From positions 1 through 8,096 of the forward strand of contig JAGHAR010000132.1 in NCBI GenBank assembly GCA_021161405.1: a DNA stretch of 8,096 bases, in the 5' to 3' direction. Source of the stretch: Candidatus Iainarchaeum sp. (GTDB lineage: Archaea > Iainarchaeota > Iainarchaeia > Iainarchaeales > JAGHAR01). The translations under genes were made by a program, and so were the position numbers. The notes under the pieces are model-generated. The model ran no database searches, was not told the DNA's origin, and saw nothing but the letters and a program-made list of their open reading frames with translations. This document shows, one piece after another, positions 1-8,096 of the stretch (position 1 is the stretch's first letter; each line of letters begins with the position of its first letter).

Positions 1-308
1 GAAACCGGCGCAAAGCACTTGCCCTTAAGCTGATCTAGCTCCTCGGGCTCCCGTGTGGTGTATATCGTATTGTAGTGCTGCCCCGTGAACCGCACCATGC
101 TTCCATGACCGACCCCAATCAGGATCGCGTTTTGCGGTGAGGCCATCGCGGCCTGCACTTTAGACTTGATCGCGTCCTCGCCATACAGCTCGATATACTG
201 TGCACCCGCACCAGCTATCTTGTCCCTGTAATACTGCCTGCACCTGCGCGACCACCTGGTGGTGGCTACCTCGAAGTCGGGCAGAGATGCGACTACGCCC
301 ACCGTCAT
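1..308 (-). CDS. Clan CD (caspase/gingipain-like) cysteine peptidase, N-terminal part, cut by window edge
   Basis: I translated this frame by hand: it starts with ATG at 308 and stays open to base 1, giving 102 complete residues. After a basic N-terminal stretch (residues 16-30) there is a hydrophobic strand followed by a GHG triplet (NAILIGVGHGS, residues 60-70). Then come an FTGQ.Y segment (74-79) and a second hydrophobic strand (FAPV, then a codon starting TC, so Ser). In clan CD peptidases such as gingipains, caspases and CHAT domains the catalytic His sits in a strand-His-Gly motif, and the catalytic Cys ends the next strand, often as SC. That Cys would fall just outside the window. The start follows the TGA of the 94-aa gene directly (TGA at 309-311), with GGTGTGA upstream, so the two are coupled. 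The role could be virion maturation, lysis or host manipulation. The family call is from memory of motifs; the role is inference. Confidence 0.55.
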   Translation of the reverse strand, partial: MTVGVVASLPDFEVATTRWSRRCRQYYRDKIAGAGAQYIELYGEDAIKSKVQAAMASPQNAILIGVGHGSMVRFTGQHYNTIYTTREPEELDQLKGKCFAPV

Positions 309-593
309 TCACACCACGCCCGCAAGGCTAGCAAGTATCTTTTCTGCCTCTGGCCTGTGCTGACGTAGGATCTTAGGCACGTCAGTGTAGCGGACAGGTG
401 GCATACCGGGGTCGCCCAGTGTAGCTATAGCACGGCGCTTCACGTGCTCCGGCATCCTGTGCAGCATCTCCTCCCACAGCTCCGCTATCTCTTCCACAAT
501 GCCGAGGCTTAGCACTCCCGTCCGCTGTTTTTGCTCCATAGCCATGCGCGCCTTTTCGACTATAACCGCGAAGACTGCCCCAGGCCCGGTCAT
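309..593 (-). CDS. 94-aa helical protein of unknown function
   Basis: I do not recognise this protein. It begins with a short hydrophobic stretch (FAVIVEKARMAM, residues 8-19) and continues as charged, probably alpha-helical sequence (VEEIAELWEEMLHRM, residues 33-47). A Pro/Gly break (DPGMPPVRYTD) leads to a C-terminal helix (residues 71-92). There are no Cys residues, no clear membrane span and no catalytic motif. The ATG at 593 overlaps the TGA of the upstream 71-aa gene in an ATGA junction, and GGGAGG lies nine bases upstream of the ATG. Its own TGA abuts the ATG of the peptidase gene. The tight packing between a one-span membrane protein and a peptidase suggests a shared job such as release, entry or maturation, but nothing in the sequence proves this. 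Confidence 0.75.
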   Translation of the reverse strand: MTGPGAVFAVIVEKARMAMEQKQRTGVLSLGIVEEIAELWEEMLHRMPEHVKRRAIATLGDPGMPPVRYTDVPKILRQHRPEAEKILASLAGVV

Positions 594-805
594 ACGTCGA
601 AGCCTCCCTGCTTGAGCACCTTAGCGGTCACGCGCTCCTGATGGGCAAGGTTGGCCACTATGTAGTTTAGTATCGCTACCTCGACGGTCTGCAGCGTCTT
701 GTCATCTATGATGCCGAAGAACCACAGGCCCAGTGCAAGGAAGCCTGCGCCTGCGGCCACGGCCTTCATCCGCCAGTCACCGAATACCACCCTGACCACG
801 CCCAT
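590..805 (-). CDS. 71-aa single-span membrane protein
   Basis: The protein has a short basic-aromatic N-terminus (VVFGDWRMK), one strong hydrophobic segment (AVAAGAGFLALGLWFFGII, about residues 15-33) and a soluble tail of about 38 residues with a likely helix (LQTVEVAILNYIVANLAHQ). That layout would fit a virion membrane protein or a holin-like protein, and I cannot tell these apart. It is the first gene after a promoter-like region. A TATA-like TTTATA lies about 40 bases upstream and AGGTGA ends six bases before the ATG at 805. The leader holds a perfect 8-bp inverted repeat reaching to the start codon. The stop overlaps the next gene's ATG (ATGA, 590-593). That the gene is real is well supported; its function is open. 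Confidence 0.75.
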   Translation of the reverse strand: MGVVRVVFGDWRMKAVAAGAGFLALGLWFFGIIDDKTLQTVEVAILNYIVANLAHQERVTAKVLKQGGFDV

Positions 806-870: not shown

Positions 871-1041
871 CTAATCAGCAGGCTTCAGGTGCTGGGCCTG
901 TGCGGGCGTAAAACTGATGTAGACATCGCCATTCTCCCAGCGGTATACCCACCGACCGCTGATTAGCCCGACAAGCACCCACCGCACTTCTTTACCCGAC
1001 AGCGGGTGGGGCGCCTTTATCACCTTCGGTGGCCGCGTCAT
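871..1041 (-). CDS. 56-aa small protein of unknown function
   Basis: I found this short frame by hand translation. ATG at 1041 overlaps the TGA of the 686-aa gene (ATGA, 1038-1041), GAAGG lies five bases upstream, and the frame ends at TAG (871-873). The product starts MTRPPKVIKAPHPLSGKEV. It then has two likely beta strands, VRWVLVGLISGRWVYRW (residues 19-35) and DVYISFTP (39-46), and ends in a Gln/His-rich tail. It is basic and Trp-rich, like the C-terminal part of the large protein before it. There is no signal peptide or membrane span. I do not recognise it. The overlap, the ribosome binding site and the fact that it fills the gap up to the next promoter argue that it is a real gene, last in the long leftward operon. 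Confidence 0.7.
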   Translation of the reverse strand: MTRPPKVIKAPHPLSGKEVRWVLVGLISGRWVYRWENGDVYISFTPAQAQHLKPAD

Positions 1042-3098
1042 GACGCCTTCGGTTTAGGTAGCTTGCGGAACTTTTCAAGTTTTACGATTGCATCTGCACG
1101 CTCCTCGCTTAATCCTATGTCCAACAGGTCTTGCCTAAGCTCCTCCTCTGTTATCACGTCCTTTCTGAATGCCTGAATAGCAGCGTCGACAAGATCGCGC
1201 TTGTAGTCCAACTCATAGTCCAACTGTGCCCACTTTACCGTCAACTCGATTACCGGGTCGATAAAGCCCAACCTCCTCAATTCGTCCCTTAATTTGCCTT
1301 CATCTATGAAGCCCTCGCGGTATAAGCGCTCCAGCGCTGACCTAACTCTGCCTATTTCGTCCCTGAGCACGTTCTTTACGTAGGCGTCCTTTACCTTATC
1401 GACCCAATCAGTGTGTATGCCTTCTGCCCTGATCAGTCGCTTAAGGTCGTCTTCGGTGATTATGCCCCACTCATACATCCACCTGGCGTCTATGCGCCCC
1501 GGCAGTTTCTGTGACAGCTCGCGCCACCAGTCGTCGTAGCGCGGGTGGTAGTCTGCTAAGTGCACCATCTGCATGAAGTCGTCGAAGCTGATCTTGCCGC
1601 GCCACCACATCTCTCGCGCCTGCTCATACGTGGGTATCTGCCAGTGAGCCGTCCAGTAAGCATCAGCCCAGAAATCATCATAGCCCAGTTTACGTGCCCA
1701 TGATTTGAACTGTTCTGGCGCTGGCGTTACTATGTCGGGATTCCACACGTCCCTGACCACGAAACGCACGAGGTCGCTAATTCCTGGCACATTTGGCCGA
1801 AAACGCTCTAAGTAAAAGCGTTGTAGGGGCCTCTGCAGGGCGGTCATTACTGGCGTCAAGATGGGCAGGCTGACAAGTGCAGGCACACCCAATAACTGCA
1901 GCGTAGTCCTCCAGAACTCGGTGGCCTTTACATCCTTAAACGGGTGGGGCAGGTCTATCGCCAGCGCGCCCAGTGAGCCTAGCAGGCTGACCGCAAACAT
2001 GGTCACGCCCAGGCTTGTGGCCGCACCCACTGCCGCTGTTTCGGACATGGGTGAACCGGCATACTGCTCCAGCGTCCTGTTGATTAGGTCATGCATCTGC
2101 AACAGTAATCCCGTTGCCATCTGCTGATACTCAGGCGGCGGGCTATGCATCTTACTCGCTTCCTGTAGCTCACTTATCGCGCCCTGAAACAGGGGGCGTA
2201 TCTTGTCCACCAGCCAATCCTTAGCGTCACCCACTAAATCCACCAGTTTACCCGACAGCTCCTTTAGCTGATCCCACAGCCATAGCAGGAATGCCTTAAG
2301 GGGCTCCCACGCGTGCTCTTTAAGCCAATCGCCAATATCGCCCAGCTTTTCCGCCCATGTGGCGCCCATCCCGTCGAGTGCTGACCACAGCTTACGCGAC
2401 GCGTCGTCCACCTTGCCCGGCAGGTCGGTGTCCACCTTACTAAGTATCAGTGATAGTATGGGGTTCTGGGCTGCCACCACGTAGGGCCCCACCTCGTCTA
2501 GCTTCTTAGCAAGCCACGTTATATGATCCCAAAGCCACGCCTTAGCGTCCGACAGCCATGCCAGGATTGCCTGCGCGTGAGATACCACCCAATCCCTTAC
2601 CTCTCCCGCCTTTTCACCTATCCACTCTATCACACCTGTTATGCGCTGTATGCCCCAGGACTTCAGCGCGTCGAAGGCCCCCGAAATTCGATCCCATATC
2701 GATTGCAGGTGCACCCAAATTGACTGCACCGCACTCTGGGCTGCATCGCTGATCCACCTTGCGGCTGCCGTGAACTGATCGCCCAGCCACGTCCAGAGCC
2801 AATTTAGGACGCCATACGCGGAGCCTAGTATGCTCCTGATCGCATTCGTTAGGCTGGTGACTACAGCGCCGACAGCCTCGCTGATCCACCCCTGAACGTG
2901 ATTCCACAGGGCCTCGAACCACTCCTGCACCCCATCCAATGGCCAGGGCCAGCCTGTGTCATACAGCTCCCTGGCGCTGGGCTGTGGAATATCGGGTGCA
3001 CCTGCACCATCAAATGCGGTCGGCCAGCCCGCGCTATCCTCCCCAGTAAAGGGCCAGTCGAAAAAGTAGGAGTCGGGCAGGCTGGCGTAGTCAGTCAT
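1038..3098 (-). CDS. Large membrane-associated virion protein with Trp-rich amphipathic helices and C-terminal helical repeats (686 aa)
   Basis: This is the longest gene in the window. Residues 1-55 are Asp/Pro/Trp-rich. Residues 56-305 are a run of amphipathic helices with Trp at recurring positions (for example VEWIGEKAGEVRDWVV-type segments; residues 155-200 and 248-300). Two hydrophobic segments follow (about 354-382 and 397-422). Residues 436-686 hold a conserved-looking helical region: NVPGISDLVRFVVRD, FWADAYWTAHWQIP (476-489), then G-I/F-x-E/D helix pairs at 545, 596 and 647, exactly 51 apart, with a related one at 501. I recall similar W..HW..P and RG.I motifs in large proteins of uncultured phages, which I cannot verify here. 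A structural role in contact with an internal membrane, perhaps genome delivery or minor capsid, fits best; a tape-measure protein is less likely without tail genes. GAGGAG lies eight bases before the ATG, which overlaps the previous stop (3095-3098). Confidence 0.8.
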   Translation of the reverse strand: MTDYASLPDSYFFDWPFTGEDSAGWPTAFDGAGAPDIPQPSARELYDTGWPWPLDGVQEWFEALWNHVQGWISEAVGAVVTSLTNAIRSILGSAYGVLNWLWTWLGDQFTAAARWISDAAQSAVQSIWVHLQSIWDRISGAFDALKSWGIQRITGVIEWIGEKAGEVRDWVVSHAQAILAWLSDAKAWLWDHITWLAKKLDEVGPYVVAAQNPILSLILSKVDTDLPGKVDDASRKLWSALDGMGATWAEKLGDIGDWLKEHAWEPLKAFLLWLWDQLKELSGKLVDLVGDAKDWLVDKIRPLFQGAISELQEASKMHSPPPEYQQMATGLLLQMHDLINRTLEQYAGSPMSETAAVGAATSLGVTMFAVSLLGSLGALAIDLPHPFKDVKATEFWRTTLQLLGVPALVSLPILTPVMTALQRPLQRFYLERFRPNVPGISDLVRFVVRDVWNPDIVTPAPEQFKSWARKLGYDDFWADAYWTAHWQIPTYEQAREMWWRGKISFDDFMQMVHLADYHPRYDDWWRELSQKLPGRIDARWMYEWGIITEDDLKRLIRAEGIHTDWVDKVKDAYVKNVLRDEIGRVRSALERLYREGFIDEGKLRDELRRLGFIDPVIELTVKWAQLDYELDYKRDLVDAAIQAFRKDVITEEELRQDLLDIGLSEERADAIVKLEKFRKLPKPKAS
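2997..3008 (+). repeat. Dispersed 12-mer TGCACCTGCACC, copy 1
   Basis: This is a perfect copy of a 12-mer also found at 3906-3917 and 4683-4694. It lies within the 686-aa gene, where it encodes Gly-Ala-Gly-Ala (residues 31-34). The other copies are read in different frames. Confidence 0.7.
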
Positions 3099-3559: not shown

Positions 3560-3985
3560 TCACTCACCTGTTTTGAATATCAAGCGTCTAAACATATTAA
3601 ATAGACCTTCAGTCGCGCGGGCAAGCCTGAGCATAGCTTCCGCCTCCTCCTCCGTTATTATCTCGATGACCACCCTGACGGTGTGGTCATAGGTGTCGTC
3701 CAGGTTATAGCCCACTACAGTCAAAATTGGTGGATCACCTAACGTCTTATAGGCCAGCCTGAAGTCCCCGGGCGTTCTATACCACGTGAACCACTCACCC
3801 GCATTAGTGGGAAATATCTGAGCCTCACCGCTCAGTATCTTGACCCCGACCAGGCCCAATGCACCGTAAGGTATGTCGACCATCACCCGGGTGACGACGC
3901 CCCTGTGCACCTGCACCTCAAATCGCTCGGGCGTCTCCTGTGACGTCGATTTGGGAATCGTCAGGTTGAAGCAGTAGACACCCAT
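3560..3985 (-). CDS. 141-aa beta-rich virion protein (vertex/spike candidate)
   Basis: Residues 1-110 are predicted almost entirely beta: VYCFNLTIPKST, RFEVQVHRGVVTRVMVDIPYGALGLVGVKIL (21-51), AQIFPTNAGEWFTW (55-68), and PPILTVVGYNLDDTYDHTVRVVIEI (85-109). The last 30 residues form an amphipathic helix ending basic (TEEEAEAMLRLARATEGLFNMFRRLIF). The NLDDTYDHTVRVVIEI stretch parallels NDDPTNPHTCWIYLEG in the 117-aa protein, and both follow a Q/N..P.xxG element, so the two look like distant paralogues. I recall related GLVGVRI...P.N..W...YN.DDTYxHT proteins in uncultured phages, unverified. A single jelly-roll vertex, adaptor or decoration role fits. The ATG at 3985 is one base past the preceding TGA (3987-3989), with GAAGGT upstream. 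Confidence 0.72.
   Translation of the reverse strand: MGVYCFNLTIPKSTSQETPERFEVQVHRGVVTRVMVDIPYGALGLVGVKILSGEAQIFPTNAGEWFTWYRTPGDFRLAYKTLGDPPILTVVGYNLDDTYDHTVRVVIEIITEEEAEAMLRLARATEGLFNMFRRLIFKTGE
3564..3569 (-). promoter_or_regulatory. Ribosome binding site fixing the start of the 83-aa gene
   Basis: AGGTGA on the minus strand is complementary to the CACCTCC-type 3' end of 16S rRNA. It lies six bases upstream of ATG 3557, which favours that codon over the in-frame GTG at 3563. Confidence 0.6.
3906..3917 (+). repeat. Dispersed 12-mer TGCACCTGCACC, copy 2
   Basis: This is a perfect copy inside the 141-aa gene. It is read there as (Glu-)Val-Gln-Val-His, a different frame from the copies at 2997-3008 and 4683-4694. 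Confidence 0.7.
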
Positions 3986-3986
3986 C

Positions 3987-4667
3987 TCAGACCTTCCCCT
4001 CCTCCTTCAACCTTGCTTTAATGCTTCTTAGGCTGTAGGCGGAAGTTTCGTAGCCCCACAGGGCCCACGTCACGCTACCATATGAACATTCAATCGTTAG
4101 TTTCGCGCCCGCTTCAAGCGGGATAGGTATCGGTGGCCTAATTTGGTATGTCCTAGCTTCATCGGGCCCGGCGGAACACACAGCAAAGACCTTTTGGGTC
4201 TCACCGTCCGGATATATGTATATCCACACATGTGATGCACCCGTTAGGCCAGCGGCATCTACCGCCACGACCAGATTTATTAGCCAGAACGTCTTACCTG
4301 GTGGAACGACGTATATATTCGTCTCAGCGCCAGAATACCACGTCCCTATCCCGTGATATACGAATTGTGCCGTTCCACCAATTGGGAGAGCCCAGGGAAT
4401 GTCGAGATCGCCACCTTTGCTGTATATGTTCACGTCTATGTCCTGCGCCGCTATGTTGATGTCCAGCGTGGCAGTGCTGCTCACTATACTGACGCCCAGC
4501 GTCGCGGTCGCAGATGCTATATTCACGTTTAGCTGCCCCAGACTCTGTGCAACTATATCTACGCCTATCTTCGCTATGCTCTGCGCTGCAATATCGACTG
4601 CCAGCGTGTCTATCGCCTGCGCAACGATACCCACAGGCACAGCATAGTCGGGCAGGCCGGTCGGCAT
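3987..4667 (-). CDS. 226-aa spike/fibre-like protein with repetitive stem and C-terminal beta domain
   Basis: Residues 10-80 are a run of 9- to 12-residue repeats of the form xVxIxAQSIxxL: AVDIAAQSIAKI, GVDIVAQSLGQL, NVNIASATATL, GVSIVSSTATL, DINIAAQDI. Alternating hydrophobic residues and short turns like these suggest a trimeric beta-helical or beta-prism stem, as in viral fibres. After a Gly/Asp/Pro break (GGDLDIPWALPIGG, 85-98) comes a beta-sandwich-like domain (99-210) with YVVPPGKTFWLINLVVAV and PIPLEAGAKLTIECSYG, and the tail is basic. There is no signal peptide. The likely role is a receptor-binding or vertex spike, with the stem near the capsid and the C-terminal domain outward; the reverse is possible. 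The start at ATG 4667 has only a weak GCGAG upstream; TAG of the 82-aa gene ends at 4675. The start is therefore somewhat uncertain; function is inferred from fold patterns. Confidence 0.72.
   Translation of the reverse strand: MPTGLPDYAVPVGIVAQAIDTLAVDIAAQSIAKIGVDIVAQSLGQLNVNIASATATLGVSIVSSTATLDINIAAQDIDVNIYSKGGDLDIPWALPIGGTAQFVYHGIGTWYSGAETNIYVVPPGKTFWLINLVVAVDAAGLTGASHVWIYIYPDGETQKVFAVCSAGPDEARTYQIRPPIPIPLEAGAKLTIECSYGSVTWALWGYETSAYSLRSIKARLKEEGKV
4429..4640 (-). repeat. Coding repeats of the fibre stem
   Basis: This stretch encodes about six short units rich in AAQSI, ATATL and VxI motifs in the 226-aa protein. At the DNA level, ATTGCAGCGCAGAGC-like and GCGCAGGCGATAG-like segments recur imperfectly. 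The units are diverged, so the array is old and held by protein structure rather than by recent slippage. Confidence 0.55.
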
Positions 4668-4674
4668 CTCGCAT

Positions 4675-4923
4675 CTACCCCATGCACCTGCACCTGATTA
4701 GCCAATAAGCCAGCGTCCAAATGAGGGGTATATCGGACATCAACATTACCCACTCATGCGTCCAGGGCCGCAGGAAGTCGTGAGGATCGGGCCACACTCC
4801 CCACGCCAGGCCCTGGTGTAGCAGTATCAGCACGTCCTTTAGGATAACTATGCCCACTATTGTTCTGGCTGGGGCCCTGCCGAATAGCTGCCTAATGTAG
4901 TTGCAGCTGTAGTGTCCCATCAT
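4675..4923 (-). CDS. 82-aa two-span membrane protein
   Basis: Two hydrophobic segments are visible: TIVGIVILKDVLILLHQGLA (about 21-40) and EWVMLMSDIPLIWTLAYWLI (about 57-76). A polar Pro/Trp/Asp loop (WPDPHDFLRPWTH) joins them. The N-terminus (MMGHYSCNYIRQLFGRAP) and the C-terminus (RCRCMG) are basic and contain Cys. Positive ends with an acidic middle loop suggest both ends face one side. I cannot name the family; a virion internal-membrane protein or a holin-like protein are both possible. Two consecutive ATGs (4923 and 4920) overlap the TGA of the LamG gene. GGTGAG abuts the first ATG, so the second may be the better-spaced start. The C-terminal RCRCM is encoded by the dispersed 12-mer. 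Confidence 0.7.
   Translation of the reverse strand: MMGHYSCNYIRQLFGRAPARTIVGIVILKDVLILLHQGLAWGVWPDPHDFLRPWTHEWVMLMSDIPLIWTLAYWLIRCRCMG
4683..4694 (+). repeat. Dispersed 12-mer TGCACCTGCACC, copy 3
   Basis: This is a perfect copy at the 3' end of the 82-aa gene, read as Arg-Cys-Arg-Cys-Met, a third reading frame. It lies 16 bases upstream of the 226-aa gene's start codon. Confidence 0.7.
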
Positions 4924-5636
4924 CTCACCGGCGCCAAAGTCCTCACCGGTTCTAAAGACCTTAATGGACTCTGCTTGATGGTGACTGGGGTAGCGCCATA
5001 GACCGTGCCGTCGTTACCGTAACCCGAACGGTCGGGCCACGTCGTCTCTGTGGCGTCGTCTCCGTGTAAATACAACACTAGGCCGTCCTTGGTCACGCGA
5101 CCGTAGAAGTTATCCAAGACCTCCTCATCCGTCAACAGATCGGTATAAACCCTGACTAATGCGATCTCTCCGTCAAGATAGTATGTAGGCCCCCAACCAC
5201 CCACGCGAACGGGCGTGTTTATGTCTGGGGTCACACCCGTCTTAGCCGTATCTGATGCTATGATGCTACAATTCAAGTATAGCCACGCTCCAACATCCTT
5301 TTGATGTTTGGCGACTACATGTATGTAATATCCAACCTCAACGGCGCCACTTAAATAAGCATCATAACCTGAAGCGTAGGAGCCATCGTAAGCCTGTGCA
5401 AATTCTAGTTTCCCATCTGGCCACACCTGAATTTTCATGTATGTCCAACCGACCGCTATGGGCCTGTTAGCTATACATCTTGGAAGCATGAACACCTCAA
5501 TAGTGTAGTTGCAACCGGAATCGATTATTTGTGTGATTAATTCGTCGTCCACCCTAACATAATCGTCCACGCCATCGAAGCTCACCACTTTGTCCGTCGG
5601 TGGCATCAGTAGCGTTCTCACGGGTTCCAACGGCAT
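4920..5636 (-). CDS. LamG/concanavalin A-like (jelly-roll) domain protein, 238 aa
   Basis: Residues 16-185 show the classic LamG/pentraxin-like order. An opening strand VVSFDGVDDYVRVDD (17-31) is followed by NYTIEVFMLP (43-52), the WTYMKIQVWPDGKLEF region, YYIHVVAKHQ, AWLYLNCSII (117-126) and the closing strands DGEIALVRVYTDLLTDEEV (155-173). Residues 184-216 (DGLVLYLHGDD...DRSGYGNDGTVYGA) match the linker often seen after such domains. These folds bind glycans or act as spike and adhesin modules, so a host-recognition role is likely. The N-terminal PLEPVRTLLMP is echoed by PLRSLEPVRTLAPVR at the C-terminus, as if a second tandem module had been lost. The gene is visibly richer in A/T than the capsid gene, hinting at a separate origin. 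GGAGGT lies nine bases before the ATG. Confidence 0.82.
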   Translation of the reverse strand: MPLEPVRTLLMPPTDKVVSFDGVDDYVRVDDELITQIIDSGCNYTIEVFMLPRCIANRPIAVGWTYMKIQVWPDGKLEFAQAYDGSYASGYDAYLSGAVEVGYYIHVVAKHQKDVGAWLYLNCSIIASDTAKTGVTPDINTPVRVGGWGPTYYLDGEIALVRVYTDLLTDEEVLDNFYGRVTKDGLVLYLHGDDATETTWPDRSGYGNDGTVYGATPVTIKQSPLRSLEPVRTLAPVR

Positions 5637-5684: not shown

Positions 5685-6080
5685 CTAGGCTTTCAGTAGG
5701 GTATCGATTGTGTAGGAAGTTGCTGCCCCTGCCGTCGTGCTCTTCACCCAGACCTCGACCTGTCCTACGCCGCTTGGGATTTCATAGTATGCGGTTTCTC
5801 CTGGCGCGAGTGTGCCCGACCTGCCGACGTAGTAGCCAGAAGCAGTCTCGTGCGGTAAGATGCGGATCTCGTAGTCCATGTTATTCGTGTCGCCCGTGTT
5901 CTTCACAAAGACAGAGCCCGCGATAAACGAGCGGGACACGCATCCAGCTGCCTTCGTCAGCGTGTCGGTCGTGTTCCCCGACGCCGTGTAGGCTACGGAG
6001 TAGTGGCTCTGATGATCACAAGGCGTCATAACCCTGTGATCGTGGATGAATACCCGCTTTACCCAATCCACCAGACCCAT
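5685..6080 (-). CDS. 131-aa beta-rich virion-type protein of unknown function
   Basis: The protein has a short basic amphipathic N-terminus (MGLVDWVKRVFIHDHRV, residues 1-17) that could anchor it to membrane or capsid, then a His/Cys patch (CDHQSHY, 21-27). The rest is Thr/Ser/Gly-rich beta sequence: FIAGSVFVKNTG (52-63), MDYEIRILP (68-76), LAPGETAYYEIPSGVGQVEVWVKST (90-114). The alternating pattern and the PGETAYYEI turn look like a small Ig- or jelly-roll-like domain, as in decoration or spike proteins. I do not recognise a named family. The ATG at 6080 overlaps the TGA of the 117-aa gene (TGATG), and GGGGTGGTAGC upstream resembles the capsid gene's AAGGTGGTAGC. It is co-transcribed with the 117-aa gene. 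Confidence 0.7.
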   Translation of the reverse strand: MGLVDWVKRVFIHDHRVMTPCDHQSHYSVAYTASGNTTDTLTKAAGCVSRSFIAGSVFVKNTGDTNNMDYEIRILPHETASGYYVGRSGTLAPGETAYYEIPSGVGQVEVWVKSTTAGAATSYTIDTLLKA

Positions 6081-6433
6081 CAGCTACCACCCCGCTCGGT
6101 TTCTAGTGTGCCCTCAAGATAAATCCAGCAGGTGTGCGGGTTAGTGGGGTCGTCGTTAACGTAGTAAACACCTACAACGTCACCTGAGTCAAAGACCACC
6201 TCACAGTCCAGCCTTATCGGCGCCTCTCCGGGGTAGATATAACCCTTAGACGGCACCACGTTTAGCTGTCCCCGCCTTATCGCTATCTTCAGCTGCCCCT
6301 CCGTGCCGGGCGTGCCCACCACCCTGACCTTAGTTATGGTCAGCTTCTTCGCGGAAGGAACCTGATAGATCTGAGCTGTTCCGCTTCCCGCAGCCGAGGC
6401 GGTCAGCTGATAAGCTAGGGTGATCCTGGCCAT
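6080..6433 (-). CDS. 117-aa beta-rich virion protein (vertex/decoration candidate)
   Basis: Nearly the whole protein is predicted beta: AQIYQVPSAKKLTITKVRVVGTP (21-43), GQLKIAIRRGQLNVVPSKGYIYPGEAPIRLDCEVVF (46-81), DVVGVYYVNDDPTNPHTCWIYLEGTLE (84-110). The PSxKKLTITKVRV opening and the NxDxxxxHT...EG ending resemble small receptor-binding, adaptor or vertex proteins of phages, a match made from memory. It shares the N-x-D-D..HT motif with the 141-aa protein. Its gene is the first after the major capsid gene. GGGGTG lies seven bases upstream of ATG 6433, and a T-run and inverted repeat in the gap suggest a transcription boundary. Likely one of the virion proteins needed in fewer copies than the capsid protein. 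Confidence 0.73.
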   Translation of the reverse strand: MARITLAYQLTASAAGSGTAQIYQVPSAKKLTITKVRVVGTPGTEGQLKIAIRRGQLNVVPSKGYIYPGEAPIRLDCEVVFDSGDVVGVYYVNDDPTNPHTCWIYLEGTLETERGGS

Positions 6434-6436
6434 CCG

Positions 6437-6461
6437 CCTGCACCCCAGCGATTAGTGCAGG
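6437..6461. repeat. 7-bp inverted repeat between the capsid and 117-aa genes
   Basis: CCTGCAC (6437-6443) and GTGCAGG (6455-6461) are perfect inverted repeats around an 11-base spacer, and they overlap the leader of the 117-aa gene. The right arm is part of the dispersed GCAGGTGC motif. It could form an RNA hairpin just before the ribosome binding site or be a protein site. Confidence 0.45.
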
Positions 6462-6468
6462 TGCATAC

Positions 6469-6475
6469 AAAAAAA
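6469..6475 (-). terminator. Poly-T terminator after the capsid gene
   Basis: The minus strand carries seven consecutive T bases, 16 bases downstream of the capsid gene's TGA (6491-6493), preceded by the C-rich CCTCACCCTCACCC. Archaeal RNA polymerase ends transcripts at T-runs without needing a hairpin. Partial readthrough would supply less mRNA to the minor virion genes that follow. The T-run is seen directly; its efficiency is inferred. Confidence 0.6.
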
Positions 6476-6490: not shown

Positions 6491-7381
6491 TCAGGCCAGC
6501 TTAGTCGGCCCGTATTCCTCCAGGTAGACGCTTATGCTCTTGCCAGAGGCGTTCTGAGTCAGTATCAGCTTGAGTTTGCTCAGGCCAGCCGTCACGAAGC
6601 TCTCGTGGATACTCTCGTCTAACACCGCATAGACATACTGATACGGCCCCTCCTCACCCGGCGCGACGGGGAAGGGCTGGAGCAGATACTGAAGCGCCTT
6701 AAGCTCGTCCCAATAGAGGTCTATTGGGATTATCCTGCCGCTGTCCACGTCCAGCTTAACCCTGCTGATGCCGGTGCCGTCCTCCGTGTTGAGTGCAAGT
6801 CTACGATACGGCATGCCCAGCGGCAGCTCGATCTCCTTGTCACCTGAGGCTGCCGTGGTGAAGCTGTAGATGTCCCTGCGCCTGATGAACCCACCGAAGT
6901 TGACCGCAGCCCTGTCGGCTGGCCTGAGGGCCAGGAAGTCGAAGCTTCCCGAGCCCGATACATACTTGCTGTCGTAAGTCCACGGCAGCTTGAACTGCAC
7001 TGAGCTATAGTTAGCAGTATCGAGTCCATACTGTGGATCGCCCAGGAACTTGCCGAAGGGCACGATATACCTAACGTGCTGCGTGTAGTCTGCAGTCTGC
7101 GCCAGGTCGTGATACGGCTTCTTCTTCGTGTCCATGAACTGTGCCCAGCTCGCGCTGCCGTGACCCATGGCGGCGAGTATAGTCCTACCCTCCGCTATCA
7201 CCTCCAGCGTGCCCACCTGCGCGCTGAGCAGGGGCGCATCGTCGGCGGTCGAGTAGTTAGTCACGCTGAAGTCCAGCATCACAGCGCTGACCTTCTCGTT
7301 GGCGGGCAGGTCGACCGTGATGGTCTCACCGTCGTCCAGTGGCTCCCCCCTCTTTACGTATATCCACTCCCACCTGACCAT
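6491..7381 (-). CDS. Major capsid protein, probable double jelly-roll fold (296 aa)
   Basis: The protein splits into two beta-rich halves. The first (about 17-155) runs from ITVDLPANEKVSAVMLDFSV through VRYIVPFGKFLGDPQYGLD (103-121) and SSVQFKLPW to FDFLALRP. The second (about 163-290) has DKEIELPLGMPYRRLALNTE (181-200), ISRVKLDVDSGRIIPIDLYW (205-224) and KLILTQNASGKSISVYLEEYG. The PFGxFLGD..Y.LD and PYRRL..........VKLDVDSG..IP.DLY patterns match what I recall of double-jelly-roll capsid proteins in uncultured viruses. The length fits the small end of that class (PM2 P2 is about 270 residues, STIV about 345). Codons look well chosen for high expression. AAGGTGG sits four to five bases before ATG 7381, and a T-run follows the stop. 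A search against DJR profiles or a predicted structure would settle it; an HK97 fold is not suggested. Confidence 0.72.
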   Translation of the reverse strand: MVRWEWIYVKRGEPLDDGETITVDLPANEKVSAVMLDFSVTNYSTADDAPLLSAQVGTLEVIAEGRTILAAMGHGSASWAQFMDTKKKPYHDLAQTADYTQHVRYIVPFGKFLGDPQYGLDTANYSSVQFKLPWTYDSKYVSGSGSFDFLALRPADRAAVNFGGFIRRRDIYSFTTAASGDKEIELPLGMPYRRLALNTEDGTGISRVKLDVDSGRIIPIDLYWDELKALQYLLQPFPVAPGEEGPYQYVYAVLDESIHESFVTAGLSKLKLILTQNASGKSISVYLEEYGPTKLA

Positions 7382-7419
7382 GCTACCACCTTACCGTGTG
7401 CGGGTGCACCCTTTATCGG
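7382..7419 (-). promoter_or_regulatory. Capsid gene leader with ribosome binding site and GGGTGCACCC palindrome
   Basis: The 38-base gap holds AAGGTGG (7386-7392) just before the capsid ATG. It also holds a perfect 10-bp palindrome GGGTGCACCC (7402-7411) that overlaps a near copy of the dispersed TGCACCTGCAC motif. GATAAA just upstream is a weak TATA candidate, so a separate capsid promoter is possible but not shown; readthrough from the 153-aa gene would also serve. Confidence 0.4.
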
Positions 7420-7881
7420 TCACCCGCCCTTGACCCTGCCCTTGGCCGCCTTCAGGGCCCTAAGGTTGGCGAGCATCCTCTGCTCTCTCTCGGCGTCGGT
7501 GGTGTTGGGCATCTGGTCGATCTTCTGGACGATCTCGGACAGTATCGGGTGCCACTTCTGTATCCTGTCTCTCACCTTCGGCTCCCTGGTCTTGACTCCC
7601 TCCACGAGCCTGGGCGCGAACAGGACGGCGTAGGTCGCAACGTCGTTGTCGGTGAGCCCCTGCAGTCCCTTCTTCCTCCTCTCCTCCTCTATGACCTTCC
7701 TCATCACGGCCTTGTATCTGCCCTCGGCCGCTACGCTGGACTCGATTATGGGCTTCCTCGGGTGGGTGATACCGTCCTTGTAGTTGGCCTCACCCACTGC
7801 AGACAGCGAGGACAGCATCCTCTTGACCCAAGTGTCCGGGTCAATCAGCCGCCTTACCTGGACGTTAACCGGGGTGCTCAT
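7420..7881 (-). CDS. 153-aa helical protein upstream of the capsid gene (scaffold/assembly candidate)
   Basis: The start is taken as ATG 7881, because GCAGGTG (7888-7894) lies six bases upstream; an in-frame GTG at 7890 falls inside that site. The protein is helical and highly charged. It opens MSTPVNVQVRRLIDPDTWVKRM and continues with SSLSAVGEANYKDGITHPRKPIIESSVAAEGRYKAVM, a KVIEEERRKKGLQG patch, FAPRLVEGVKTREPKVRDRI and a C-terminal MLANLRALKAAKGRVKGG. I recall proteins with the same order (KW...Y..GV..P......AE..Y..., ..EGV.......P, ...LP...R...L...K) encoded just before capsid genes in many uncultured phages. If that holds, it is a conserved capsid partner, scaffold or internal protein. 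It has no membrane span and no Cys. Codon style matches the capsid gene. It is the first leftward gene after the divergent control region. Confidence 0.75.
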   Translation of the reverse strand: MSTPVNVQVRRLIDPDTWVKRMLSSLSAVGEANYKDGITHPRKPIIESSVAAEGRYKAVMRKVIEEERRKKGLQGLTDNDVATYAVLFAPRLVEGVKTREPKVRDRIQKWHPILSEIVQKIDQMPNTTDAEREQRMLANLRALKAAKGRVKGG

Positions 7882-7887
7882 GGTATG

Positions 7888-7894
7888 CACCTGC
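7888..7894 (-). promoter_or_regulatory. Ribosome binding site of the 153-aa gene
   Basis: GCAGGTG on the minus strand lies six bases before ATG 7881, preceded by six A bases (7895-7900). It decides for ATG 7881 over the in-frame GTG at 7888-7890, and it doubles as a copy of the dispersed GCAGGTGC motif. Confidence 0.6.
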
Positions 7895-7913
7895 TTTTTT
7901 GATGTGCCTGCAA

Positions 7914-7921
7914 GCTTTTAT
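7914..7921 (+). promoter_or_regulatory. TATA-like box of the rightward leaderless gene, possibly bidirectional
   Basis: CTTTTATC is centred about 25 bases upstream of ATG 7943. That is the spacing at which an archaeal transcript would start on the first base of the start codon. The other strand reads GATAAAAG, which could serve the leftward 153-aa gene, with a start near 7890-7895 close to its ribosome binding site. The leftward use is less certain. Confidence 0.5.
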
Positions 7922-7927
7922 CTATGC

Positions 7928-7941
7928 CTCAGAATTCTGAG
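7928..7941. promoter_or_regulatory. 14-bp perfect palindrome, operator candidate
   Basis: CTCAGAATTCTGAG is fully self-complementary and fills the space between the TATA-like box and ATG 7943, ending one base before the start codon. A dimeric repressor bound here would block the rightward start site. The sequence and position are seen directly; the binding protein is unknown. Confidence 0.5.
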
Positions 7942-7942
7942 C

Positions 7943-8096
7943 ATGATGGCTCCGCAGGCAGGCAAGCGGCTGATTCATGGTAAGCGCTCCTGGCAACCGC
8001 GTGAGATGTTGATGTTACACGAGTGGCTCACTAAGAACTGGTCACACGCCCGGTGGCTCACACGCGTGAGGCTGGGGTCACCGGCACCCGACGTGC
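7943..8096 (+). CDS. N-terminal part of a rightward gene, unknown function, cut by window edge
   Basis: A frame opens at ATG 7943 (ATG ATG; 7946 is an alternative) and runs to the window end without a stop, giving 51 residues. It starts MMAPQAGKRLIHGKRSWQP and continues REMLMLHEWLTKNWSHARWL, then TRVRLGSPAPDV. It is strongly basic and Trp-rich, and the middle looks like a helix followed by a second helix, which could be a DNA- or RNA-binding region. This cannot be shown from 51 residues. It has no Shine-Dalgarno motif, but a TATA-like box lies 25 bases upstream, so the transcript is probably leaderless, as is common for first genes in Thermoproteota. It is the only rightward gene and probably opens a separate, perhaps early or regulatory, operon. 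No family recognised. Confidence 0.6.
   Translation, partial: MMAPQAGKRLIHGKRSWQPREMLMLHEWLTKNWSHARWLTRVRLGSPAPDV

Follow-up and report, generated by a model that had tools for sequence, protein, structure and literature searches.

A fragment of a small, likely tailless double-jelly-roll virus, probably of a heat-loving archaeon, with a gene layout like that of the Odin group

The DNA analyzed here (the window, 8,096 bp, which is the whole of contig G000:C114) is well supported as a fragment of a double-jelly-roll (DJR) virus. The best overall explanation, to which we give a probability of roughly 0.75, is that the virus is small and likely tailless, that it likely belongs to a heat-loving archaeon, and that its gene layout resembles that of the Odin group. 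Its lineage forms a new, deep branch within a known kind of virus that is little described; in the portions of published text covered by our literature search, no account was recognized as describing this lineage. Nearly all of the window is a single minus-strand gene set, and one divergent gene is cut at the right end (Table 1). An earlier note on this DNA had placed the 296-aa and 153-aa open reading frames correctly, at the positions and on the strand listed here. The gene cut at the left end had no match in Pfam or PHROG and no credible match in NCBIfam or the PDB.

Table 1. Features of the window, in order of position.
Feature	Position	Strand	Basis
Start of cut gene	3..308	-	ORF; 102 aa visible, truncated by contig end
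94-aa protein, predicted ORF	309..593	-	GGAGG upstream of start
71-aa protein with hydrophobic stretch	590..805	-	ORF, AGGTGA upstream; downstream of virion genes
686-aa protein, likely membrane-interacting virion protein	1038..3098	-	Conserved C-terminal part
141-aa conserved protein, a probable minor virion protein	3560..3985	-	Homologues in relatives
226-aa protein	3987..4667	-	BLASTP 4.9e-8 to L116:9270-9896
238-aa protein, Laminin_G_3 (concanavalin-like) domain	4920..5636	-	Pfam E 3e-12
131-aa protein	5685..6080	-	ORF; best Pfam E 0.15, PHROG none
117-aa protein, from its position a probable minor virion protein	6080..6433	-	Marginal family match
T-run, possible terminator	6469..6475	-	Sequence; 15 bases past capsid gene
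296-aa predicted capsid gene	6491..7381	-	ORF, predicted fold
153-aa cons1-like gene	7420..7881	-	Adjoins capsid gene upstream; profile match
Intergenic region, 61 bp, between divergent gene and capsid operon	7882..7942	.	TATA-like GATAAAAG / CTTTTATC element, both directions
Divergent gene, 5' part, cut by contig end	7943..8096	+	Distant match to relatives' divergent protein

The 296-aa protein is supported, as a prediction, as a DJR (Varidnaviria-type) capsid protein with two jelly rolls in one chain. The motifs that had suggested this identity (PFGKFLGD, YRRL, and VKLDVDSG) are present, and the proposal agrees with the structural model, in which a two-jelly-roll fold is predicted with high confidence and solved DJR capsid proteins are matched over nearly the whole chain. 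The top structural match in the PDB is the capsid protein of STIV, with 14% identity in the structural alignment. PRD1, a virus with a packaging ATPase, is equal on Z (22.8). The predicted fold is common to the capsid proteins of Bacillus phage Wip1, PRD1, and PM2, but identity to them is about 9-14%. STIV B345 matched the profile of the window's capsid family weakly and collinearly (6.6 bits), and the profile matched three chains among PDB sequences, none of which is a capsid protein.

This capsid family is mostly metagenomic. The window protein matched that of locus L038, one of ten related loci described below, by BLASTP (2e-23). Two members, the window protein and P0002, are 296 aa long, compared with 380-389 aa in 92 of 120 family rows; the residues missing from the window capsid are gaps in the second half of the alignment. 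A midpoint-rooted tree of 124 capsid proteins, built by a quick method, joins the window to P0002 as a pair (support 100) whose stem measures 1.55 changes per column. The amino-acid composition of P0002 was flagged as unusual in the tree analysis. Family member P0065 bears the source name 'phage tail protein X', and capsid relative P0011 comes from a Phenylobacterium MAG.

The gene preceding the capsid gene had been described as a conserved partner, and comparison across loci bears this out: a match to the small gene cons1 lies directly before the capsid match, on the same strand, in all 11 loci, with the window's own copy distant. A profile of 122 cons1 proteins excluding the 153-aa protein scored it 12.1 bits (best of 500 shuffles, 8.2), and the match is collinear over residues 31-147. 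With the distant L036 copy added to the profile, the score was 17.3 bits (best shuffle, 11.5). None of the 14 other window proteins was within the eight best-scoring targets of the cons1 profile. A three-sequence cons1 profile scored the 153-aa protein 6.1 bits, which is not significant, and hhalign assigned it low probabilities (0.4-1.9% in global and 11-19% in local mode). We read the 153-aa protein as a probable distant cons1, an identification helped by its position. Its AlphaFold model is all helical with low confidence (67.6). Two relatives (P0147 and P0161) are named from the LCGC14 marine sediment metagenome, LCGC14 being Loki's Castle. Together with gene position, these two relatives are the basis for equating the relatives' cons1 with the cons1 of Yutin et al. 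(2018; PMC5894146), by source and place rather than by comparison of sequences.

Gene neighborhoods were compared among 11 loci, namely the window and L024, L036, L037, L038, and L114-L119. They have a common layout of a divergent gene, cons1, the capsid protein, the 141-aa protein, and a large helical-looking protein. The 141-aa family occurs in ten loci at E <= 1e-3 (L115 is cut just past the capsid gene), using a profile built from five of its loci, the window among them. The C-terminal family of the 686-aa protein occurs in eight loci, three of which built the profile, and a 99-aa family also occurs in eight, the window not being one of them. Because seven loci were found via cons1 and the small profiles include loci that they match, the counts should be read as describing a layout, not as independent trials. 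Links between separate loci are also backed by BLASTP, with the 141-aa protein matching L038 (E 4e-20) and L036 (1e-18) and the 686-aa protein matching L036 (8e-21). The 117-aa protein matches the 141-aa family marginally (E 6e-4) and L037 by BLASTP (E 0.035).

A divergent protein of 169-197 aa is common to seven relatives (L024 and L114-L119) in the same position as the cut gene at the right end of the window. The window's divergent gene scored 7.0 bits against the family HMM (best of 1000 shuffles, 3.5), and its BLASTP match to L115 had an E of 0.001. The relatives' protein carries a VDAV...E[AS]K stretch, a candidate PD-(D/E)XK-like motif; the window copy is cut before it. Pfam searches with three full-length divergent relatives gave no confident match.

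An archaeon is the likely, if unproven, host, and codon usage is the main indication. In the 15 minus-strand genes of the window, ATA accounts for 82 of 160 isoleucine codons (0.51) and AGA plus AGG (AGR) for 86 of 142 arginine codons (0.61), at a GC3 of 0.69. The archaeal reference set contained 40 stretches, 37 of them from one phylum, and 18 had GC3 >= 0.55. Among these 18, ATA ranged from 0.21 to 0.78 (at least 0.4 in 16) and AGR from 0.49 to 0.89. Eight bacterial or phage controls had ATA of 0.03-0.19 and AGR of 0.07-0.29; the bacterial controls are few, and both of the thermophile phages are from Thermus. Codons of the controls were counted with an automatic gene caller. The Aeropyrum virus APOV1, which has the same GC as the window, had values of 0.54 and 0.77, and the IMG/VR relatives were intermediate (ATA 0.20-0.43, AGR 0.31-0.61).

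Expression signals had also been cited for an archaeal host, and they contribute less. Leaderless transcription is not borne out: 12 of the 15 genes, including the capsid and 153-aa genes, have a Shine-Dalgarno match of at least 4 bases, compared with 44 of 109 control ATGs, and the other three have only 3 bases. These matches argue against a leaderless operon, a reading that we rejected. The divergent plus-strand gene at 7943 has no Shine-Dalgarno match. TATA-like hexamers do occur upstream of 5 of 15 genes against a background of 4%, but the hexamer list was drawn up once the sequence had been read, and the T-run itself accounts for one of the five. They fit archaeal promoters, and the TATA-like GATAAAAG / CTTTTATC element in the intergenic region is a putative promoter. 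The proposed T-run terminator is present as a 7-base run following the capsid gene on its strand, but 29% of shuffled windows hold a run of at least 7. Sigma-70 promoters and hairpin terminators were not above chance.

The same kind of virus could infect a bacterium, in which case drift, or unusual codon usage in a thermophilic bacterium, would account for the archaeal-like codons. AGR codons can also be abundant in bacteria such as Aquifex or Thermotoga. We consider a bacterial host unlikely, as the combination of ATA and AGR at this GC3 lies outside all eight bacterial controls (two of them Thermus phages) and inside the archaeal range, and several genes are preceded by TATA-like hexamers; on the bacterial side are the common Shine-Dalgarno sites, the capsid relative in a Phenylobacterium MAG, and, in the text available from Yutin et al. 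(2018), Odin-group trees in which bacteria and archaea are mixed (PMC5894146).

Binning would assign the virus to the small-genome archaeon of bin G000 (668,527 bp, 139 contigs, 76% complete), where the contig was placed. We think this host improbable and rejected it on the GC mismatch (56.5% in the window against 35-41% in 14 of 15 other bin contigs sampled, with C115 at 51.6%) and on the absence of relatives in the phylum, since profile searches matched none of 86 other genomes of the window's own phylum. CRISPR spacer-type searches of 398 and 87 genomes gave weak matches only, none seen in an array: no spacer-like match was present in the 87 genomes, and a repeat array was absent at the 8 weak-match loci from the 398. 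Binning is weak evidence for a host in this group, because the archaea-binned relatives L036 and L037 differ in codon usage (ATA/AGR 0.19/0.39 and 0.32/0.36) from their own bins (0.39-0.45/0.83-0.90). Their archaeal bins may be wrong too.

Among described viruses, the Odin group provides the closest published comparison. As characterized in the text consulted, its DJR genomes are 7-11 kb, lack a packaging ATPase, and in every contig carry a small conserved gene ahead of the capsid gene (Yutin et al., 2018; PMC5894146). They encode ParB and PD-(D/E)XK nucleases and sporadically PolB, M15 peptidase, HTH proteins, and integrase (PMC5894146). The present lineage is similar in having a small conserved gene directly before the DJR capsid gene (the window copy is weak, above 500 shuffles) and in having both archaeal and bacterial associations, and its closed relatives, as far as scanned, gave no packaging ATPase. 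Accessory genes in the relatives likewise recall that group, with MazE/AbrB, integrase, a weak M15 match, ParB (a ParB-like nuclease in L037, L114, L116, and L118), and a family-B DNA polymerase only in L036. The portion of the genome present in the window has no ParB-like nuclease gene. The closed relatives differ in being 13.6-14.0 kb, and the window capsid is short; both were set beside the Odin group by description, not by sequence. We file the window as Odin-group-like rather than as a proven member, because the agreement, judged from descriptions, extends to layout and gene set but not to genome size.

Several archaeal viruses are similar by description, in the parts of the reports drawn on here. 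Huginn virus is an Odin-group member tied by spacers to the archaeal host Odinarchaeum, and Huginn virus and Skuldviridae share the DJR capsid and the tailless form (Tamarit et al., 2022; PMC9246712). Chaacviruses (Chaacviridae) of ANME-1 archaea have a highly divergent DJR capsid and, upstream, an uncharacterized gene homologous to its Huginnvirus-group counterpart, but their genomes are linear, 10-11 kb, with inverted repeats and pPolB, compared with the direct terminal repeats of three relatives here (Laso-Perez et al., 2023; PMC9894754). DJR viruses are also among those targeting Thermococcales, and these too are tailless and assigned to thermophilic archaea (2026 preprint, PMC12934983). 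The earlier note had proposed an archaeal clade related to bacterial DJR viruses; an archaeal clade stays likely, but instead of forming a new link to bacterial phages it comes closest, among published kinds, to the Odin group, with its archaeal and bacterial contigs, and to chaacviruses and Huginn virus, which are archaeal.

Relatives L114, L116, and L118 carry exact direct terminal repeats (141, 119, and 141 bp, respectively), as closed genomes do, and were taken as closed on this basis. Their lengths are 13,611, 14,029, and 13,743 bp. If the window's genome is as long, the contig represents about 60% of it, and the search that found no ATPase bears on the relatives rather than on this virus. 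Packaging ATPase, terminase, and portal were not found in the scanned proteins of the three relatives, which were a subset of their ORFs (10 proteins each of L118, L116, and L114 with PHROGs; 10 each of L116 and L118 with Pfam). The scans yielded ParB, integrase, DNA methylase, an HNH protein, and Laminin-G, and the PHROG scans also gave weak virion-structural or tape-measure profiles. Three Walker-A strings occur in the closed relatives in frames of at least 60 aa: in a 223-aa minus-strand frame over forward genes (L116), a 61-aa frame (L116), and a 115-aa frame (L118). We take none of these to look like an ATPase. In frames of at least 100 aa, no Walker-A string occurs in the window (a partial genome), L024, L036, or L038, and a 121-aa frame of L037 contains one. 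The window and ten relatives, several of these contigs being cut, showed no exact inverted terminal repeat of at least 12 bp.

Published DJR groups nearly always pair the capsid gene with a packaging ATPase: the enzyme is stated for the PM2 and Bam35 groups, and in the text consulted the Odin and FLiP groups alone are without it (PMC5894146). All STIV-group genomes (Turriviridae) encode one (PMC5894146), whereas none was found in the three closed relatives, which gives indirect support to the earlier claim that gene content sets this virus apart from turriviruses. The virus could instead be an archaeal virus of turrivirus (STIV-group) type, with its ATPase in the missing part of the genome. 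Such a virus would be consistent with STIV as the top PDB match and with the weak collinear match of STIV B345, but we regard it as improbable given the equal Z of PRD1, the ATPase not found in three closed relatives, and the position of cons1 beside the capsid gene, an Odin-group mark in the text available (PMC5894146).

The 686-aa protein has an amphipathic, tryptophan-rich N-terminal part; 27 of the first 320 residues are Trp. The relatives have, ahead of the gene for the C-terminal part, a distinct gene of 230-330 aa, whose product has 13-25 Trp in the five inspected but only 3 in L036. The link between these and the window's N-terminal part is weak (BLASTP E 0.002 to L037). We infer that the 686-aa protein is likely a membrane-interacting virion protein. 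The 238-aa Laminin_G_3 protein is likely, by inference, a receptor-binding spike. In closed relative L118, too, a Laminin_G_3 gene (E 3.4e-14) lies between the capsid gene and the 141-aa family, although the window and L118 proteins have no pairwise match at E 0.1.

A tailed virus, in which the 686-aa protein would be a tape measure, is very improbable. That protein does match PHROG tape-measure profiles (best E 4e-8, residues 54-364), as does a 238-aa protein of L116 weakly (E 9e-5), but the matches of the 686-aa protein lie outside its conserved C-terminal part. Compared with Caudoviricetes, the window capsid is predicted to be DJR, not HK97. Pfam and PHROGs detected no terminase or portal in the window proteins, and the scanned proteins of the three closed relatives also lack them, with one weak 'major tail protein' match in L116 (E 1.8e-5). 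By the earlier note's own refuting condition (terminase, portal, and tail genes), the outcome in the scanned proteins of the relatives was negative. The capsid fold and these absences disfavor a tail. Least credible, and rejected, is a cellular DJR-fold enzyme (GH172/DUF2961 type) in place of a capsid protein.

Well-studied viruses with the DJR fold have an internal lipid layer. For this reason, and because the 686-aa protein is tryptophan-rich and amphipathic, an internal lipid layer is likely in this virus. Trimers of the capsid protein would build an icosahedral, tailless shell around the membrane. The amphipathic 686-aa protein would work at the membrane, perhaps in genome delivery, and the Laminin-G protein would attach to the host. 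Without a motor of its own, the genome might be enclosed by the shell assembling around it, with cons1 as an assembly or DNA-holding partner; enclosure by shell assembly is the simplest reading because no motor was found in the relatives. For the Odin group, Yutin et al. (2018; PMC5894146) proposed, in the text consulted, that cons1 has a role in packaging and that assembly takes place around the genome. More speculatively, the window may found a DJR family of hyperthermophilic archaea with a very reduced capsid protein, in which about 14 kb of dsDNA is packed motor-free, cons1 gathers the DNA, the shell closes around it, and the fused tryptophan-rich protein shapes the membrane and delivers the genome. 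We consider this full account doubtful, at about the level given to a bacterial host. Closed genomes of 13.6-14.0 kb with no detected motor would make motor-free dsDNA packaging testable.

The clade is hard to find in current catalogues. Seven clade protein queries (five capsid, one cons1, and one from the 141-aa family) had no matches among 50,697 phage records, and none of six capsid proteins matched in a PHROG scan at E <= 0.001. Profile searches of archaeal genomes, the source of L036, L037, and L038, matched 3 of 398 genomes in one set (two strong and one at 1.9e-12; BLASTP with STIV B345 there gave none) and 14 of 115 in another (one strong, 13 weak with E of 1e-7 to 3e-5); 0 of 23, 0 of 151, and 0 of 295 matched in the others. 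Scans of genome contigs gave no match, and a plasmid search was equally fruitless. In IMG/VR, capsid scans with the single protein, A1, and A3 gave no match, while a capsid-profile scan found L024; of the cons1 scans, A7 gave none and another found L114-L119 and L024 again. The cons1 family, by contrast, is large: among 7,996 scored candidates, 1,740 proteins match a four-sequence cons1 profile whose query included the window's 153-aa protein (P0121, the top match). One of the cons1 matches is named from a 'Thermococci archaeon', and others are named from marine sediment metagenomes.

The profile of the double-jelly-roll (DJR) capsid family matches G801:C2:7060-7356 (E 1.9e-12). This place is on the second contig (16,887 bp) of an archaeal genome that is nearly complete, and BLASTP with STIV B345, the capsid protein of a Sulfolobus turrivirus, gave no match at it. 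In the archaeal genome search, the first jelly roll of the profile gave 13 weak matches (E 1e-7 to 3e-5; L026-L032 and six other places), all in frames of 309-331 aa, and a single archaeal genus holds 11 of them. These could be integrated DJR elements.

Replication genes differ within the group, since the otherwise similar virus at L036 encodes a family-B DNA polymerase. The integrase and DNA methylase of the closed relative L116 suggest that some members may be able to integrate. In the related locus L119, the frame of a repeated short peptide is a tandem DNA repeat. The cut protein at the start of the window had no credible match in Pfam, PHROG, NCBIfam, and PDB searches, and its ILIGVGHGS stretch is reminiscent of clan-CD cysteine peptidases.

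Selected features of the window and related virus loci
Feature	Location	Strand	Remark
GCAGGTGCA-like words	window 4680-4695, 6456-6470, 7400-7410, 7880-7893		near several gene borders
Cut protein, ILIGVGHGS stretch	window 3-308	(-)	
Family-B DNA polymerase, 617 aa	L036:1374-3227		Pfam E 7.7e-27
Integrase and DNA methylase	L116:102-938 and 1516-2253		closed relative
Frame of repeated RRPSVPELGPH	L119:10526-11020	(-)	

Virus-finding tools may overlook the group, because a profile search found 1,740 matches to cons1, the small gene product encoded directly upstream of the capsid gene, in the protein collection, whereas two IMG/VR cons1 scans returned 0 and 7 contigs. One capsid-family member (P0065) is called "phage tail protein X" in its source, a label that is likely mistaken.

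A second high-GC contig of the window's bin, G000:C115 (L018), is likely also misbinned because its GC content is 51.6%, compared to 35-41% for the other bin contigs sampled. Some of the GCAGGTGCA-like words in the window overlap Shine-Dalgarno sites.
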